Below are positions 11,735-24,384 of a DNA stretch of 64,000 nucleotides, in pieces (position 1 is the first letter of the stretch; each line of letters opens with the position of its first letter). This DNA is from Blastocatellia bacterium. Its GTDB lineage: Bacteria > Acidobacteriota > Blastocatellia > HR10 > J050. The position numbers and the translations under genes were made by a program. Below the pieces are notes generated by a model. The model was given only the letters and a program-made list of their open reading frames with translations. It made no database searches and was not told where the DNA came from. Location: contig JALSQX010000022.1 of assembly GCA_026985075.1 (NCBI GenBank), positions 1-64,000 on the forward strand. The letters run 5' to 3'.

Positions 11735-13069
11735 CTAAATCTCGTTCATCATGTACTGGAGCCACTGCCGAATGAAGGCTCTCTGGTTGGCCTCGGCGTA
11801 ATCCAACGGATACGCCTCCCCAGGCCCCGGCCAGGTGGGGTCCAGGGATAAATGATCCATGCCCATCTGGTAGTTCAATTCGTGTACTCGAGCCATGAGT
11901 CCTTTGGCCATTCGTGTGATGCTGCGCCAATTCTCAGTATCATCCTGTTCGAAGACGCCGGAGGTGCCGAACGTGTGCACATAGGTCTGATAGGACCGCT
12001 CCTTGAACCACTCCGGCGCATCCCGCTCCACCAAAAACCACGACCACACCTCCGTCCGATCCGGCCCCACCGGCCGCCATACCCGAAACGTCAACATCGG
12101 CGTCGGCGCCGACCGATGATCCTTGGCAATCATCACGTTCAACACCGAAAAATTGGGAAACACCGTCCCGTGGAGGAAGTTGATCCGCCGAGCCACCGCC
12201 ACCTGCTCGGGCGTGGGATAGCTCCGCTGCAACGACTGCACCATCTCCTCGGGATACCCCCAAAACGGCGGCAGCTCCATCCCCGGTGGCGCACTGATCA
12301 TCCCCAACCCGTGCCCGTTGCCCGCATGCACGTGCACCCCGTACATGGCAAACTTGGGATCGCCGGGAGCGAGCTTCAAGTCCACGGCCGAATGGTGTGT
12401 CATCAGCGTGTGATAGGCATCGCCAATGAAATTGTCCGCTCCCAGTTTCCAGTTGGCGTCCACAATCCACCGGTGCGGAGCGCCGACGACTTCCAGGCCC
12501 GCCTCGCTCCGTTTCGTCACCAGATCGAGGTACCACGTCATATCTCCCAGATACTCGGTGAGCGGGGGGGCATTCTCGTCAAGGGAGGCGAAGATCATCC
12601 CATTGTACACATCCCATCGGGGAACGGGTCGTAGCCCCCACTTCGCCTTATCCAGCTTGTCGCCATAAGCTTCTTTGGCTGCAGGCACGCCGACCAGTGC
12701 GCCCGTCGTTTTGAAGGTCCACCCGTGATAGGGACACCGGAAGTGCGTGGCATTTCCCATCTCTGCCCGGCAAACCTGCATTCCCCGATGACCGCAACAG
12801 TTGAACAGAATCTGTATCTTTCTCTGAGCATCGCGAACGACGATGAAACTATCATCGGCAATATACCGCACCACGTAGTCGCCAATATCGGGGATTTCTG
12901 ACTCATGTGCCAGGTAGATGTAGGCGCGGGCGAAAATGCGTTCTTTTTCCAGCTCGAAGATCTCAGGATCATTGTAGATCTTCGCCGGAACCCGCCCGTC
13001 TCGGATACTCGATTGGGCTCGTTCGAGAAGCCTCTGACTCGACCCCATCTGTTGAATCTCTGTGACCAT
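11735..13069 (-). CDS. Rieske ring-hydroxylating dioxygenase alpha subunit (orphan, paralogue of 23,047)
   Basis: A 444-residue alpha subunit. Rieske ligands are Cys92, His94, Cys112 and His115; iron ligands are His220 and His225 (GDAYHTLMTH) and the Asp of FEQDD. The start is ATG 13069, eight bases after ggaggt; the upstream ATG at 13090 would bury that site. No beta gene lies beside it, unlike the paralogue at 23,047, so it may borrow a beta subunit or work alone. The catalytic-domain stretch 11940-12169 is identical in DNA to part of the paralogue, while the N-terminal halves have drifted apart. A TATGAT element upstream in the leftward direction (near 13,095) may be a -10 box. Confidence 0.92.
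   Translation of the reverse strand: MVTEIQQMGSSQRLLERAQSSIRDGRVPAKIYNDPEIFELEKERIFARAYIYLAHESEIPDIGDYVVRYIADDSFIVVRDAQRKIQILFNCCGHRGMQVCRAEMGNATHFRCPYHGWTFKTTGALVGVPAAKEAYGDKLDKAKWGLRPVPRWDVYNGMIFASLDENAPPLTEYLGDMTWYLDLVTKRSEAGLEVVGAPHRWIVDANWKLGADNFIGDAYHTLMTHHSAVDLKLAPGDPKFAMYGVHVHAGNGHGLGMISAPPGMELPPFWGYPEEMVQSLQRSYPTPEQVAVARRINFLHGTVFPNFSVLNVMIAKDHRSAPTPMLTFRVWRPVGPDRTEVWSWFLVERDAPEWFKERSYQTYVHTFGTSGVFEQDDTENWRSITRMAKGLMARVHELNYQMGMDHLSLDPTWPGPGEAYPLDYAEANQRAFIRQWLQYMMNEI
11940..12169 (-). repeat. 230-bp perfect inverted repeat, copy 1 (inside alpha-subunit gene)
   Basis: Read on the minus strand, these 230 bases match 23950-24179 on the plus strand base for base; I compared the two in full. 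Similarity remains high, with scattered differences, out to about 12,360 and then falls to ordinary paralogue level. The boundary on one side is a third-codon-position difference (12170) and on the other the codon after QDD. Confidence 0.95.
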
Positions 13070-13403
13070 TCGTCGACCTCCTTCTCTCATGAATCATAGT
13101 GTCTGCTCGTCCAGGAGACTGAAAGGCTCCGTCGGGAACGGCTCCAGGCAGGGCCAGCACCACTGGTTGGCTTGAGGCGAGAGCCCGGCCCACTTCGAGC
13201 CGTCGGTTTTCGATGGCTAGGTGCATTCCCGACGCCCAATGTGCGCCAAATTGCCCACCCTCTGAACCCCCGTCTTTGCCCCTCAGGGGAGGCTGCAACT
13301 CACGTGCCGAACCCGATCGAACGATGGAGGAGAACTAACTCCTTGAATGGGAGTCGGTTAATAATGGGGATCAGGAGTGGCGGCCAACAGGCTGAATCTT
13401 TGT

Positions 13404-14836: not shown

Positions 14837-15841
14837 ATGACCACCAAACCACTCATCGACAAGCCTCGATTGGCAGAATTAAACGAGACGACCTTGCTCG
14901 ATTTGCTCTATTACATGAAGTTGATGAGAGCCGTCGAGCAACGCATAGAGCGCGTCCTCTACCGGCAAGGCAAGATACCTGGCGCCGTCTATTCGGCGCG
15001 CGGCGAAGAAGCCATCCCGGTAGGATCGGCGGCTCACTTGCGTCCCGATGATGTCGTCGTTTCATTACATCGGACCATGGGAATGTTTTTCATTCGGGGC
15101 GTTCCTCTGCGACGGATCATCGCTCAGTACATGGGACGAAAGGGTGGGGTGACCGATGGCCGGGACGGAAACATGCATATGGGAGATCTCGCTTATCATA
15201 TCATCGCTCCGATCAGTCACCTGGCAGAGACGGTGCCCGTGGCGGCAGGGGCGGCGCTGGCTATCAAGATGCGCGGGGAAGATCGCGTCGTGTACTGTTA
15301 TTTCGGCGATGGGGCGACTTCGACGGGGTCCTGGCACGAAGGGGTGAATTTCGCCGCCGTGCAACGATTGCCCTTGGTGCTCATCTGCGACAACAATCAA
15401 TGGGCCTATTCGACGCCTCTGGAGAAACAGATGGCCGTCGAACATATCGTGGATCGTGCCGCCGGATATGGCATCGCCACGGAGATCGTCGATGGAAACG
15501 ATGTTTTGGCCGTGCACGAGGCCACGGGTCGCGCCGTGGCTCGCGCGCGAGCCGGCGAGGGACCGACGTTGCTCGAATGCAAAACGTTTCGCATGACCGG
15601 GCACGCCGCTCACGATGATGCCCGTTACGTGCCCGCCCATCTCTTCGAGGAGTGGCGGGCCAAGGATCCCATCGATCGATATCAGCGGTATCTGCGGGAA
15701 CAGGGACTCCTGGATGAGGAAAAACTGAATGCCATGGAAGCGCGGATCGAGGCGGAAATCGATGAAGCGATCGCCTGGGCCGAGCGGCAACCCTATCCTT
15801 CTCCTGATGAGCTGGAACGGGGCGTCTATTACGAATCGTGA
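14837..15841 (+). CDS. 2-oxoacid dehydrogenase E1 component, alpha subunit
   Basis: A 334-residue E1-alpha subunit with the TPP/Mg signature running from GDGATSTGSWHEG to LICDNNQWA, about 30 residues apart as in the family. The C-terminal part includes the phosphorylation-loop-like RMTGHAAHDDARYVP region. It lies 90 bases after the beta gene and must pair with it. Pyruvate, acetoin or a branched-chain oxoacid are all possible substrates. In this region pyruvate from aldolase-type ring-fission products would be a natural source, but that is inference. Confidence 0.9.
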   Translation: MTTKPLIDKPRLAELNETTLLDLLYYMKLMRAVEQRIERVLYRQGKIPGAVYSARGEEAIPVGSAAHLRPDDVVVSLHRTMGMFFIRGVPLRRIIAQYMGRKGGVTDGRDGNMHMGDLAYHIIAPISHLAETVPVAAGAALAIKMRGEDRVVYCYFGDGATSTGSWHEGVNFAAVQRLPLVLICDNNQWAYSTPLEKQMAVEHIVDRAAGYGIATEIVDGNDVLAVHEATGRAVARARAGEGPTLLECKTFRMTGHAAHDDARYVPAHLFEEWRAKDPIDRYQRYLREQGLLDEEKLNAMEARIEAEIDEAIAWAERQPYPSPDELERGVYYES

Positions 15842-15844
15842 TGG

Positions 15845-15874
15845 TTGACAGGTGCCAATGGGGCGTGCTAGTCT
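15845..15874 (+). promoter_or_regulatory. Promoter for the sulfite reductase leader
   Basis: TTGACA at 15845-15850, an 18-base spacer and TAGTCT at 15869-15874, just after the stop codon of the E1-alpha gene. It would start a leader RNA of about 220 bases ahead of the reductase. Confidence 0.5.
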
Positions 15875-15884
15875 TCATGCTCAA

Positions 15885-16043
15885 TATGCGAGCCGTGATG
15901 GGCCACATCCGACGACAAACGATGACGGGAGGATCACCGGTGGCCGCGTGTATGTGTTGTCGGAGAACACATCCGCCACCGGTAGTGGGCCTCACGATCG
16001 CCGTGATCGCATAATTCAGCCGCACAGAGAATCAAGTGATGCG
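15885..16043 (+). promoter_or_regulatory. Structured 5' leader, candidate riboswitch or attenuator of unknown class
   Basis: The leader can form a closing helix TATGCGA (15885-15891) with TCGCATA (16007-16013). Inside is a hairpin with a 9-bp stem ACCGGTGGC/GCCACCGGT (15936-15944 with 15975-15983) topped by a second stem TGTGTT/AACACA. The 3' strand of the closing helix can instead pair with ATGCGA at 16039-16044, whose last base begins the terminator. This arrangement is typical of transcription-attenuating riboswitches. I could not match SAM, cobalamin, TPP or other consensus cores I know. The ligand is unknown. Confidence 0.5.
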
Positions 16044-16077
16044 AGCCCGCTATCGGACATCCGATGGCGGGCTTTTT
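16044..16077 (+). terminator. Intrinsic terminator in the sulfite reductase leader
   Basis: AGCCCGCTATCGGA pairs with TCCGATGGCGGGCT, including one G-U pair, followed by TTTTT. It lies 29 bases before the reductase start codon, so it would stop most transcripts from the upstream promoter unless an alternative fold forms. Confidence 0.85.
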
Positions 16078-16105
16078 CGCTATCGCCATATGGGGAGGAA
16101 GACGT

Positions 16106-17902
16106 ATGGTCGTTATCGCAAGAGATCTGGAGTTGGAGAGGGCGATTCAGGGCCTCCCGCCCGAGGTGCAGAAGGAGATTCGATGGTTCGCCGAGCACAT
16201 TGAGCGGTTAGAAGCGGGAGAAATCGATGAGGATGACTTCAAGCGCTTTCGATTGGAGAACGGCGTCTATGGTATTCGCGGAGCCCAGGATATGCACATG
16301 GTCCGCGTCAAAGTCCGGTTCGGTTGCATCACTCCGCATCAACTGGAGACCTTAGCGGCCATTGCCGAGCAGTTCACGCCGCATCACCGAGTGCATATCA
16401 CCACCCGTCAGGACATTCAATTCCACCATGTGAGGCGGAAAGATGTTCCTCTCGTTCTGGCGCGCATCGCCCAGTCCGGTCTCACCACTAGAGAAGCGTG
16501 CGGCAACACCGTGCGCAATGTGACGGCGTGTCCTTTCGCTGGCGTCTCTCCCTCCGAGGTCTTCGACGTGACGCCCTATGCCGATGCCGTTTCGCGGTAT
16601 TTCCTGCGCCATCCCATCACGCAGAACCTTCCTCGTAAATTCAAGATCGCCTTCGAAGGATGCCGGGAGGATCACGTCGTGCCCGCCATTCATGACATCG
16701 GAGCCATCGCCACCGTGAGACAGGAGAATAGGCGTGTGGAGCGCGGATTCCGTCTCTACATTGCTGGCGGGCTGGGCGCTCAGCCTCGGGCCGCCGAACT
16801 GTTGGAGCCGTTCACTCCCGCCGAACTCTTGATCCCCACCTGTGAAGCGGTCATTCGCGTGTTCGACCGACATGGCGAACGGCGTCCGGATCGACTTCAT
16901 CGGATGCGGGCGCGAATGAAGTTTCTGGCGAAAGATTGGGGCATCGATCGATTGCGAGAAGCCATTCTGACCGAGAGGCGCGCGCTGTTGCTGACGCGAT
17001 CTGGCCTGATGGAAGATGGGATCGAGCTCGTCGAAGAAGAACCGCCAGACGTGGACATTCCTCCTCTTCCATCGCCCGACTGGACACCGTCGCCGGAATA
17101 TGAAACGTGGCGTCGAACCAATGTTCGACCGCAAAAACAAGCCGGGTACGTCGTCGTAATCATACGGTGTGAATTGGGCGATATCACCAGCGATGGATTG
17201 CGAACTGTTGCCCGCGTGGCTCGTCGCTGGTGCGCCGGTCGCATCCGCACGGCGATCTCTCAAAACCTCATCTTGCGATGGGTGCCGGAATCGGCCCTTC
17301 CCTGGGTGTATCAAGAACTGAAACCGGCGGGTTTGGTTGCTCCAGGAGCTCATGGCCTTGCCGATGTGACGCGATGCCCGGGAGCGGATACCTGCCAATT
17401 GGCACTCACTCACTCCCGAGGATTGGCCGAGGCGCTCGGCGAGGTTCTGGCTCGTGATCTCACCGATTCCTCCGAGATACAGAACCCGTCAATAAAAATC
17501 TCTGGTTGCATGAACTCATGTGGACAGCATCATATCGCCGATATCGGTTTTTATGGAGCCTCGACGGAAATCGATGGTCATCCGTTGCCGCAATATATCG
17601 TCCTCGTCGGTGGCCAACCGGAGGGAGAACGAGTTCGGTTTGCTCGGCCTGTGGCCCGCGTCCCAGCTCGGCGGGCTCCGGAAGTCGTCAGGCGGTTGCT
17701 CGCCTTCTATCAGGCCGAGCGTAAACCGGATGAATCGTTCGTGGCCTTCGTCGATCGTCTCGGGATGAAGCCGATCAAGCGCGCGCTTGAAGATCTCGCC
17801 AGCGTGCCCCCATTCGAAGAAGCTCCAGAATTGTATCGGGATCTGGGAGCCGATGAAGAAACGTTCCGCGTCGAACTCGGTCCGGGAGAGTGCTCGGCAT
17901 GA
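16106..17902 (+). CDS. Siroheme nitrite/sulfite reductase (ferredoxin-dependent type)
   Basis: A 598-residue member of the nitrite/sulfite reductase family, with two ferredoxin-like half-domains and two siroheme/[4Fe-4S] domains. The cluster ligands are Cys424 and Cys430 (CPGADTC) and Cys468 and Cys472 (CMNSC). An earlier repeat contains TACPFAGVSP. The family performs six-electron reduction of sulfite to sulfide or nitrite to ammonia, and sequence alone does not decide between them. The nearby desulfinase and thiol dioxygenase favour sulfite; the NSC of the last motif is also seen in nitrite reductases. ATG 16106 follows ggggaggaag, just downstream of the leader terminator. A DUF4202 gene lies beside it on the other strand. 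Confidence 0.88.
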   Translation: MVVIARDLELERAIQGLPPEVQKEIRWFAEHIERLEAGEIDEDDFKRFRLENGVYGIRGAQDMHMVRVKVRFGCITPHQLETLAAIAEQFTPHHRVHITTRQDIQFHHVRRKDVPLVLARIAQSGLTTREACGNTVRNVTACPFAGVSPSEVFDVTPYADAVSRYFLRHPITQNLPRKFKIAFEGCREDHVVPAIHDIGAIATVRQENRRVERGFRLYIAGGLGAQPRAAELLEPFTPAELLIPTCEAVIRVFDRHGERRPDRLHRMRARMKFLAKDWGIDRLREAILTERRALLLTRSGLMEDGIELVEEEPPDVDIPPLPSPDWTPSPEYETWRRTNVRPQKQAGYVVVIIRCELGDITSDGLRTVARVARRWCAGRIRTAISQNLILRWVPESALPWVYQELKPAGLVAPGAHGLADVTRCPGADTCQLALTHSRGLAEALGEVLARDLTDSSEIQNPSIKISGCMNSCGQHHIADIGFYGASTEIDGHPLPQYIVLVGGQPEGERVRFARPVARVPARRAPEVVRRLLAFYQAERKPDESFVAFVDRLGMKPIKRALEDLASVPPFEEAPELYRDLGADEETFRVELGPGECSA

Positions 17903-22981: not shown

Positions 22982-23011
22982 TTGACGATCCTCATTGAGG
23001 TATGATATTAT
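22982..23011 (+). promoter_or_regulatory. Promoter of the rightward dioxygenase operon
   Basis: TTGACG (22982-22987), 18-base spacer and TATTAT (23006-23011). The -10 box lies inside the operator at 22999-23014, so a bound protein should block polymerase. Confidence 0.6.
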
Positions 23012-23014
23012 ACC
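22999..23014. promoter_or_regulatory. Operator, perfect inverted repeat GGTAT-N6-ATACC
   Basis: GGTATGATATTATACC has perfect 5-base arms around a 6-base centre and overlaps the -10 box of the rightward promoter. It is the better copy of the pair with 22806-22821. Typical of dimeric regulators such as GntR-family repressors. Confidence 0.65.
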
Positions 23015-23046
23015 AAACCACATTCGGAATCAAGGGGGTATCGAAC

Positions 23047-24384
23047 GTGACACTGAGTGTGGGTGATCGGGTCAACCAGGTCGAACAGCTCCTCCGTCGG
23101 GTCAAGCAAAATATTGATGAAGGTCGCGTGCCGGCCAAGATCTACAACGATCCTGATATCTTCGAATTGGAGAGAGAGCGCATTTTTGGCCGGGCGTACA
23201 TCTACCTCGGCCATGAGTCGGAGATCCCCCATCCGGGCGATTACATGGTGCGGTATATTGCCGATGACAACGTCATCGTCGTTCGCGATGAAGAAGGGCA
23301 GATCCGCGTCCTATTTAACTGCTGTCGCCATCGGGGAATGCAGGTCTGCCGAGCGGAGATGGGGAATGCATCCCACTTCCGGTGTCCGTACCATGGATGG
23401 ACGTACCGCAATACGGGGGAACTGGTCGGGGTGCCGGCGGGGAAGGAAGCCTATGGAGACGTCTTGGATAAAGGCGCATGGGGATTGCGACCCGTTCCTC
23501 GCATGGAGATCTATGACGGCCTGATTTTTGCCTCGCTCGATGCCCAGGCTCCATCGCTGAATGAATACTTGGGCGGGATGACATGGTATCTGGATCTGGT
23601 GACGAAGCGAACTGAGGCGGGCCTGGAAGTCGTCGGCGCTCCGCACCGGTGGGTCATGGATGCTAACTGGAAGCTCCCCGCGGATAATTTTGTCGGCGAT
23701 GCGTATCACACCTTGATGACCCATCGATCGGCAGTGGAGTTGGATCTGGCGCCCCGAGATCCCAAGTTTGCCATGTATGGGGTGCACGTGCATGCGGGCA
23801 ACGGGCACGGGTTGGGGATGATCAGTGCGCCGCCGGGGATGGAGTTGCCGCCGTTTTGGGGGTATCCCGAGGAGGTGGTGCGGGCGTTGCAGCGGAGCTA
23901 TCCCCGGCCCGAGCAGGTGGAGGTGGCCCGGCGGATCAACTTCCTGCATGGGACGGTGTTTCCCAATTTTTCGGTGTTGAACGTGATGATTGCCAAGGAT
24001 CATCGGTCGGCGCCGACGCCGATGTTGACGTTTCGGGTATGGCGGCCGGTGGGGCCGGATCGGACGGAGGTGTGGTCGTGGTTTTTGGTGGAGCGGGATG
24101 CGCCGGAGTGGTTCAAGGAGCGGTCCTATCAGACCTATGTGCACACGTTCGGCACCTCCGGCGTCTTCGAACAGGATGACGCCGAGAATTGGCGAGGGAT
24201 AACGCGGGTGGCCAGGGGACTGATGGCCCGGGACCACGATTTGAATTATCAGATGGGCATGAGTTTCTTGAAGCGAGATCCCACCTGGCCGGGGCCTGGG
24301 GAGGCGTATCCGTTGGATTACGCCGAGGCCAACCAGAGAGCCTTCATTCGGCAGTGGTGCGAGTATATGTTGAACGAAGCCTGA
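23047..24384 (+). CDS. Rieske ring-hydroxylating dioxygenase alpha subunit
   Basis: A 445-residue alpha subunit. The Rieske motif reads CCRHRGMQVC with a second half CPYHGWTY; the iron site is GDAYHTLMTH plus the Asp of FEQDD. The start chosen is GTG 23047 behind aaggggg; an ATG at 23002 lies inside the operator and upstream of the likely transcript start. It is the closest relative of the alpha at 11,735 and carries the second copy of the 230-bp identical block. A beta subunit, a small protein and an SDR follow closely, giving the most complete dioxygenase-dihydrodiol dehydrogenase operon in the window. Confidence 0.93.
   Translation: MTLSVGDRVNQVEQLLRRVKQNIDEGRVPAKIYNDPDIFELERERIFGRAYIYLGHESEIPHPGDYMVRYIADDNVIVVRDEEGQIRVLFNCCRHRGMQVCRAEMGNASHFRCPYHGWTYRNTGELVGVPAGKEAYGDVLDKGAWGLRPVPRMEIYDGLIFASLDAQAPSLNEYLGGMTWYLDLVTKRTEAGLEVVGAPHRWVMDANWKLPADNFVGDAYHTLMTHRSAVELDLAPRDPKFAMYGVHVHAGNGHGLGMISAPPGMELPPFWGYPEEVVRALQRSYPRPEQVEVARRINFLHGTVFPNFSVLNVMIAKDHRSAPTPMLTFRVWRPVGPDRTEVWSWFLVERDAPEWFKERSYQTYVHTFGTSGVFEQDDAENWRGITRVARGLMARDHDLNYQMGMSFLKRDPTWPGPGEAYPLDYAEANQRAFIRQWCEYMLNEA
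23950..24179 (+). repeat. 230-bp perfect inverted repeat, copy 2 (inside alpha-subunit gene)
   Basis: Identical to the reverse complement of 11940-12169. The surrounding stretch from about 23,760 is also nearly identical. Inside the tract the codons are unusually rich in G-ending forms (GGG, CGG, TTG, GTG) compared with the first half of the same gene. Confidence 0.95.

Follow-up and report, generated by a model that had tools for sequence, protein, structure and literature searches.

What does the leader of a sulfite reductase gene in an acidobacterium sense? In the window, the 64,000-nucleotide stretch of DNA analysed here, this gene is preceded by a leader (15845-16105) that follows the stop of a dehydrogenase E1-alpha gene (14837-15841) and reaches to the sulfite reductase ATG (Table 1). 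A preliminary description took the leader for a riboswitch-like attenuator of a class that it did not recognise, built from a promoter, a closing helix, an internal 9-bp hairpin and a strong terminator, with the word ATGCGAGCC at two competing positions. The promoter, the hairpin and the terminator lie where they had been placed, the word does occur twice (15886-15894 and 16039-16047), and the two strands of the closing helix are present (TATGCGA, 15885-15891; TCGCATA, 16007-16013). Furthermore, the whole leader folds better than its shuffles (z -3.6, 1/200). The promoter is left uncounted by an automatic scan because of the scan thresholds; in a pairwise alignment with the sister species J050, the -35 box is kept and the -10 box reads TAGTTT.

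The product of the gene contains LPRKFK, which aligns with LPRKYK of Mycobacterium tuberculosis NirA and LPRKWN of tobacco nitrite reductase. NirA functions as a sulfite reductase, and the lysine at this position presumably favours sulfite. In two related genomes (G004 and G006) the gene is accompanied by cysH. Two closely similar genes on opposite strands flank the region (11735-13090, minus strand, and 23002-24384, plus strand); by eye, their translations look like Rieske ring-hydroxylating oxygenases.

The leader also contains a feature that the preliminary description overlooked, a 24-codon open reading frame (ORF) with a Shine-Dalgarno sequence and clustered cysteine codons (Cys-Met-Cys-Cys). 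The window's Cys run has three Cys codons only, with Met or Arg codons adjoining, which counts against a cysteine reading. This leader is the sole combination of a Cys-cluster ORF and a terminator on both strands of the 64-kb window, and clusters of W, H, M, F or Y codons followed by a terminator are found on neither strand.

Table 1. Features of the sulfite reductase leader and its gene (window positions)
Feature	Position	Strand	Details and basis
Promoter	15845..15874	+	TTGACA (15845-15850), 18-nt spacer, extended -10 TGC-TAGTCT (TAGTCT 15869-15874); from sequence, start site predicted
5' copy of ATGCGAGCC	15886..15894	+	predicted fold
Shine-Dalgarno GGGAGG	15927..15932	+	7 nt 5' of GTG; GGGGAG in J050
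1:2 (protector) hairpin, 9 bp	15936..15983	+	ACCGGTGGC 15936-15944 / GCCACCGGT 15975-15983; predicted folds
Leader peptide ORF	15940..16014	+	GTG to TAA, 24 codons, VAACMCCRRTHPPPVVGLTIAVIA; translation
Control codons TGT ATG TGT TGT (Cys-Met-Cys-Cys)	15949..15960	+	identical 12/12 in J050
Region 2, antiterminator 5' arm	15979..15990	+	CCGGTAGTGGGC, inside ORF, codons Pro-Val-Val-Gly
Region 3, antiterminator 3' arm and terminator 5' arm	16045..16056	+	GCCCGCTATCGG; folding and pairing computation
Intrinsic terminator (3:4 hairpin, 12 bp, then T5)	16045..16077	+	GCCCGCTATCGG-ACAT-CCGATGGCGGGC (16045-16072), then T5; dG -24
Single-chain siroheme sulfite reductase (NIR_SIR family)	16106..17902	+	Pfam PF01077 1.5e-53, PF03460

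Three helices connect the ORF to the terminator that separates it from the gene. The 1:2 hairpin covers the start codon and the Cys codons and takes CCGGT from region 2. Region 2 is also fully complementary to region 3 along a 12-bp duplex (dG -23.1 kcal/mol; z -5.5), a pairing matched by none of 500 dinucleotide shuffles (shuffle mean about -11 kcal/mol). Since region 2 is used by 1:2 and 2:3, and region 3 by 2:3 and 3:4, the three helices are mutually exclusive. Region 2 and the last Cys codon are 18 nt apart, about what a stalled ribosome would be expected to hide on the mRNA. In predicted folds, the RNA downstream of a ribosome on the Cys codons adopts the antiterminator when it ends with region 3; when region 4 is included, the energy of the terminator is equal or lower. 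The full RNA without a ribosome is predicted to form the 1:2 hairpin and the terminator. A ribosome at the control codons would thus free an antiterminator that excludes the terminator. In the same models, the 5' copy of ATGCGAGCC can join a putative 5' helix with GGGCCTCACGATCGC, also covering region 2, which would be a secondary element.

Taken together, the leader is very probably a transcription attenuator of the trp type, in which a ribosome gauges the supply of cysteine. RNA polymerase would start near 15881 and a ribosome would initiate the leader peptide at the GTG (15940). With Cys-tRNA plentiful, the ribosome would pass the Cys codons and region 2 would refold into the 1:2 hairpin behind it, leaving regions 3 and 4 to make the terminator, and transcription would halt ahead of the sulfite reductase gene. 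With Cys-tRNA scarce, the ribosome would stall on the Cys codons and hold region 1 open, so that region 2 could pair with region 3, the terminator would be blocked and the gene transcribed. The sulfite reductase gene is thus probably switched on when ribosomes stall for want of charged cysteine tRNA. Sequence and comparison show the ORF, its Cys codons, the three mutually exclusive helices with their conservation and covariation, and similar leaders before other cysteine genes; that cells translate the ORF, that ribosomes stall on it, that RNA polymerase terminates or reads through accordingly, and that Cys-tRNA is the signal, is inferred from these.

Comparison with J050 indicates which parts of the leader are kept. 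The J050 peptide is VAVCMCCQSTSPPPVVGLTIARIT, with frame, start, stop and length unchanged and no indel. Ten of the 75 bases of the ORF differ, none of them within the Cys run or region 2: the stretch bearing region 2 is identical (21/21), as is all but one position of the terminator with the upstream ATGCGAGCCC at its base (38/39), whereas 4 of the 12 bases in the codons separating the Cys run from region 2 are changed. The 1:2 hairpin is retained with one G-U. Therefore the Cys codons, the frame and the pairing arms are kept, and not the sequence of the peptide.

Could the leader instead be a riboswitch? Here the domain 15885-16013 would be the aptamer, binding sulfide, cysteine, siroheme or a similar metabolite. 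A long structured leader with a terminator and competing helices is what such a reading expects, and a 5' helix (GCGA..CGTGA/TCACG..TCGC) is retained in J050. However, the closing helix, considered as a possible switch, is broken there (TATGCGA/TCACGTA, one pair lost and one G-U), and it was rejected in this role. The stop codon of the leader peptide falls within the 3' strand of this helix, which is not seen in the HR10, G004 or G006 leaders; nor does any 5' 'aptamer' part show conservation between genera. An Rfam scan, one of the checks named in the preliminary description, gives nothing at gathering scores and, up to E 10, only a below-threshold antisense snoRNA; the leader matches none of the T-box models at E up to 10. 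The homologous leaders thus offer neither a known riboswitch class nor a domain conserved beyond the genus, whereas the Cys codons and the relation of region 2 to the terminator are kept, and the other cys-gene leaders of the genome lack such a domain. A metabolite-binding riboswitch is therefore very unlikely. Judged from sequence and comparison, the leader is a real transcription attenuator and most likely not a riboswitch: the preliminary description was right about an attenuator with mutually exclusive hairpins before the sulfite reductase gene, but the sensor is most likely a ribosome on Cys codons and not an aptamer.

Beyond the sister species, homologous leaders were gathered through the sulfite reductase protein, because a DNA search of relatives with the leader matches the sister species alone. 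Of the 13 near-full-length sulfite reductase orthologues of the class, 12 have upstream a leader ORF with a Cys run and, after it, a terminator (L003-L014; L008 was judged by eye); L015 and L036 have no leader of the Cys-run type. The run is CMC in HR10 and G004, CMCCC in G006 and CCCC(C) in other families, and a leader annotated as Terriglobia (L035) encodes MPSAIHNCCCPAAPMCRGGAAMAMCCSPLRMAEAVGHCGG. In most orthologues, a segment 1-20 nt past the last Cys codon complements the 5' arm of the terminator, with a sequence that varies: CCGGTAGYGGGC in the window's order, GGCGGTGGGCT in G006 and GGAACCG in two other families. Compared with shuffles, the 2:3 pairing stands out strongly in the order (J050, HR10, G006) and moderately in L035; distant families have a short helix and weak values, with z about -1 (positive for L013). 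Two attenuators are not clearly above shuffles in the automatic pairing test, the sulfite reductase leader of G004 (25/500) and the cysK leader of G006 (111/500). What is conserved is the set of Cys codons, frame, start, stop, region 2 and terminator.

Does the antiterminator covary? Another of the checks named in the preliminary description was applied to nine attenuators of the order, four before sulfite reductase genes, three before cysK and two before cysH. In the 2:3 helix 95.6% of the cells are paired and 5 of the 10 pairs are changed on both sides; 0 of 500 shuffles reach the covariation score, and in slid controls 33-68% of the cells are paired. The arms were hand-picked, with one bulged base dropped from one row, a choice that biases the result towards pairing. 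Exchanging the partners of regions 2 and 3 among loci gave no discrimination because the loci are related. Covariation is thus found for the antiterminator among order-level attenuators.

Is the arrangement confined to sulfite reductase? The regulon was sampled through four gene families (cysK, cysH, cysS and cysE). The window's genome carries two further such attenuators, one before cysK and one before an operon of a sulfite reductase paralogue and cysH, and both are kept in the genome of J050 (G001). The cysK leader (contig C4) has the peptide MLQRTVNHCRPINQECMCTCRGVGVTRCRCRAGADPPVVGPKARDGA, region 2 CGCCGGTAGTGGG and the terminator arm CCCACTATCCGGCG, and has in common with the window leader the PPVVG stretch, which is the antiterminator arm. 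The leader of the paralogue/cysH operon (contig C73) has the peptide MKTGGFQTRISFIASAGCMCCCMPVGGAREAAGFEATCMELNPI and a terminator of its own. All that both leaders share with that of the window is a Cys run and the way in which region 2 relates to the terminator. In G002, a member of the same family, the sulfite reductase finds no match and cysH a marginal one; this genome retains the cysK attenuator with a compensated 2:3 helix (CTGATAGTGGG/CCCACTATCAG). A cysK Cys leader is also present in G004 and G006, and in G021 a Cys leader precedes a siroheme methyltransferase-like/cysH operon. A uniform scan for a Cys cluster, an ORF and a terminator gives 50 matches in 1.9 million strand-bases of fetched loci; on our own reading, these precede sulfite reductase, cysK or cysH operons, save for a handful of weak ones. 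In the genomes sampled, no Cys-cluster ORF with a good terminator lies upstream of cysS, and the cysE search gave no true orthologue in most of them.

Some further observations concern these loci. The sequence CTAATGAGTCAGATT is conserved about 270-300 nt before the cysK match, ahead of the leader, in G000, G001 and G002 (L124 minus strand, L125 and L121), and is perhaps the binding site of a regulator. A Cys-rich short ORF with no clear terminator is conserved upstream of cysK before a peroxiredoxin-like gene in G033 and G018 (L119, minus strand, 544-606, and L120, 548-610; ends CPLTCSCCCR / CCCPCTCSCCCR). In G025, a Cys-run ORF (CICC) with a strong terminator lies about 1.2 kb before the NIR_SIR match (L018:190-342) and is probably another attenuator heading an operon.

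The spread of the arrangement bears on two other readings. With the downstream hairpin logic unchanged, a Cys-rich peptide or slow translation might sense something other than Cys-tRNA, such as an oxidant, or a metal, which neighbouring Cys residues could bind. The Cys-rich ORFs before the peroxiredoxin gene near cysK in G018 and G033 would suit such a role; however, the loci have Cys codons alone in common and no peptide motif, and they lead into sulfite reductase, cysK, cysH and a siroheme methyltransferase-like gene, which makes this reading less likely still than a riboswitch. The least likely, and very improbable, is a constitutive terminator with a chance ORF, combining the end of the upstream transcript with a promoter. 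The terminator could also serve the upstream pyruvate-dehydrogenase-like genes (14837-15841), but the promoter sits 5' of it, and across genera the ORF stays together with region 2 and the terminator, a set that recurs before cysK and cysH. Attenuation by a ribosome on Cys codons therefore remains the preferred reading.

Comparable leaders are found in a second phylum. Poly-Cys ORFs often lie upstream of Bacteroidota sulfite reductases, with up to 11 consecutive Cys codons (L090), and are often followed by a terminator; in three loci (L062:132-449, L090:1537-1849 and L042:445-835) two such ORFs stand in series, each with an intrinsic terminator. The strength of the region-2 pairing is variable. 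Of about 90 sulfite reductase loci, 24 have within 350 nt upstream an ORF in which 8 codons include 4 or more for Cys, a count that is slightly too low because minus-strand loci were not re-oriented; the reverse strand gives 0 and Markov sequences 13/1800. Some poly-Cys ORFs have a different layout, unlike those that hold region 2: the Cys run extends to the stop codon or close to it (CCCCCCC*, CCCCCCSC*). This layout is seen about 230 and 80 nt before the sulfite reductase gene in L077 and L088, respectively, and about 390-480 nt before it in L041, L050, L052, L060, L093 and L109.

How does this leader relate to known systems? It resembles the trp/his-type attenuators of Proteobacteria in its short ORF rich in codons for the end product and its exclusive 1:2, 2:3 and 3:4 helices, and differs from them in reading Cys codons, in preceding a sulfite reductase gene, in belonging to Acidobacteriota and in holding region 2 inside the ORF. 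In Rhodobacterales, the uORFC-8-2 motif before cysS is made up of a start codon, Cys codons in tandem and an intrinsic terminator, and ribosome-mediated attenuation has been proposed (PMC8632094). The window leader has these same elements and likewise precedes a gene related to cysteine, and the workings are alike; however, that motif regulates cysteinyl-tRNA synthetase and is confined to one alpha-proteobacterial order, whereas the gene here is a sulfite reductase of an acidobacterium. For the cys operons of Mycobacterium, Propionibacterium and Bifidobacterium, Cys leader peptides have been predicted, terminators were not found and Rho was suggested (PMC1262725). Mycobacterial polycysteine ORFs are cysteine-responsive attenuators according to Canestrari 2020, as cited in PMC13236596 and PMC9094748, and are leaderless in the title of that work as cited there. 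The Cys-codon runs in short ORFs preceding cys genes are alike in these Actinobacteria, but the window leader has a Shine-Dalgarno sequence and an intrinsic terminator with an antiterminator. The tandem attenuators of Salmonella mgtCBR, with two short ORFs per leader (PMC3641672), are comparable to the serial poly-Cys ORFs of Bacteroidota; they do not concern cysteine, and the window has a single attenuator. For a flavobacterium, leader-peptide attenuation of amino-acid operons is mentioned in general terms (PMC9723704). Cysteine leader peptides are thus known in mycobacteria and Rhodobacterales, and no report was found for Acidobacteriota or for this gene; a search of the literature on Acidobacteria or Bacteroidetes and cysteine leader peptides gave nothing further, with subscription journals little covered and an earlier mention possible.

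The principle of attenuation is known; its cysteine version appears to recur before cysteine-making genes within the same genome and in two phyla, and the regulon and its two-phylum spread are the more interesting part than the single locus. The list of orphan riboswitches becomes one candidate shorter. The control of cysteine synthesis is little described in Acidobacteriota, and the leaders provide a testable regulon of at least three loci within one genome, together with a search rule (an ORF with a Cys run, then some 5-20 nt further on a region 2 complementary to an arm of the terminator) that finds more, Bacteroidota included. On balance, it seems somewhat more likely than not that a cross-phylum regulon under cysteine leader-peptide attenuation, comprising the sulfite reductase, cysK and cysH operons of Acidobacteriota and many sulfite reductases of Bacteroidota (with Cys runs as long as 11 codons and, in some cases, two complete attenuators one after the other), is an undescribed main means by which these phyla control sulfur assimilation.
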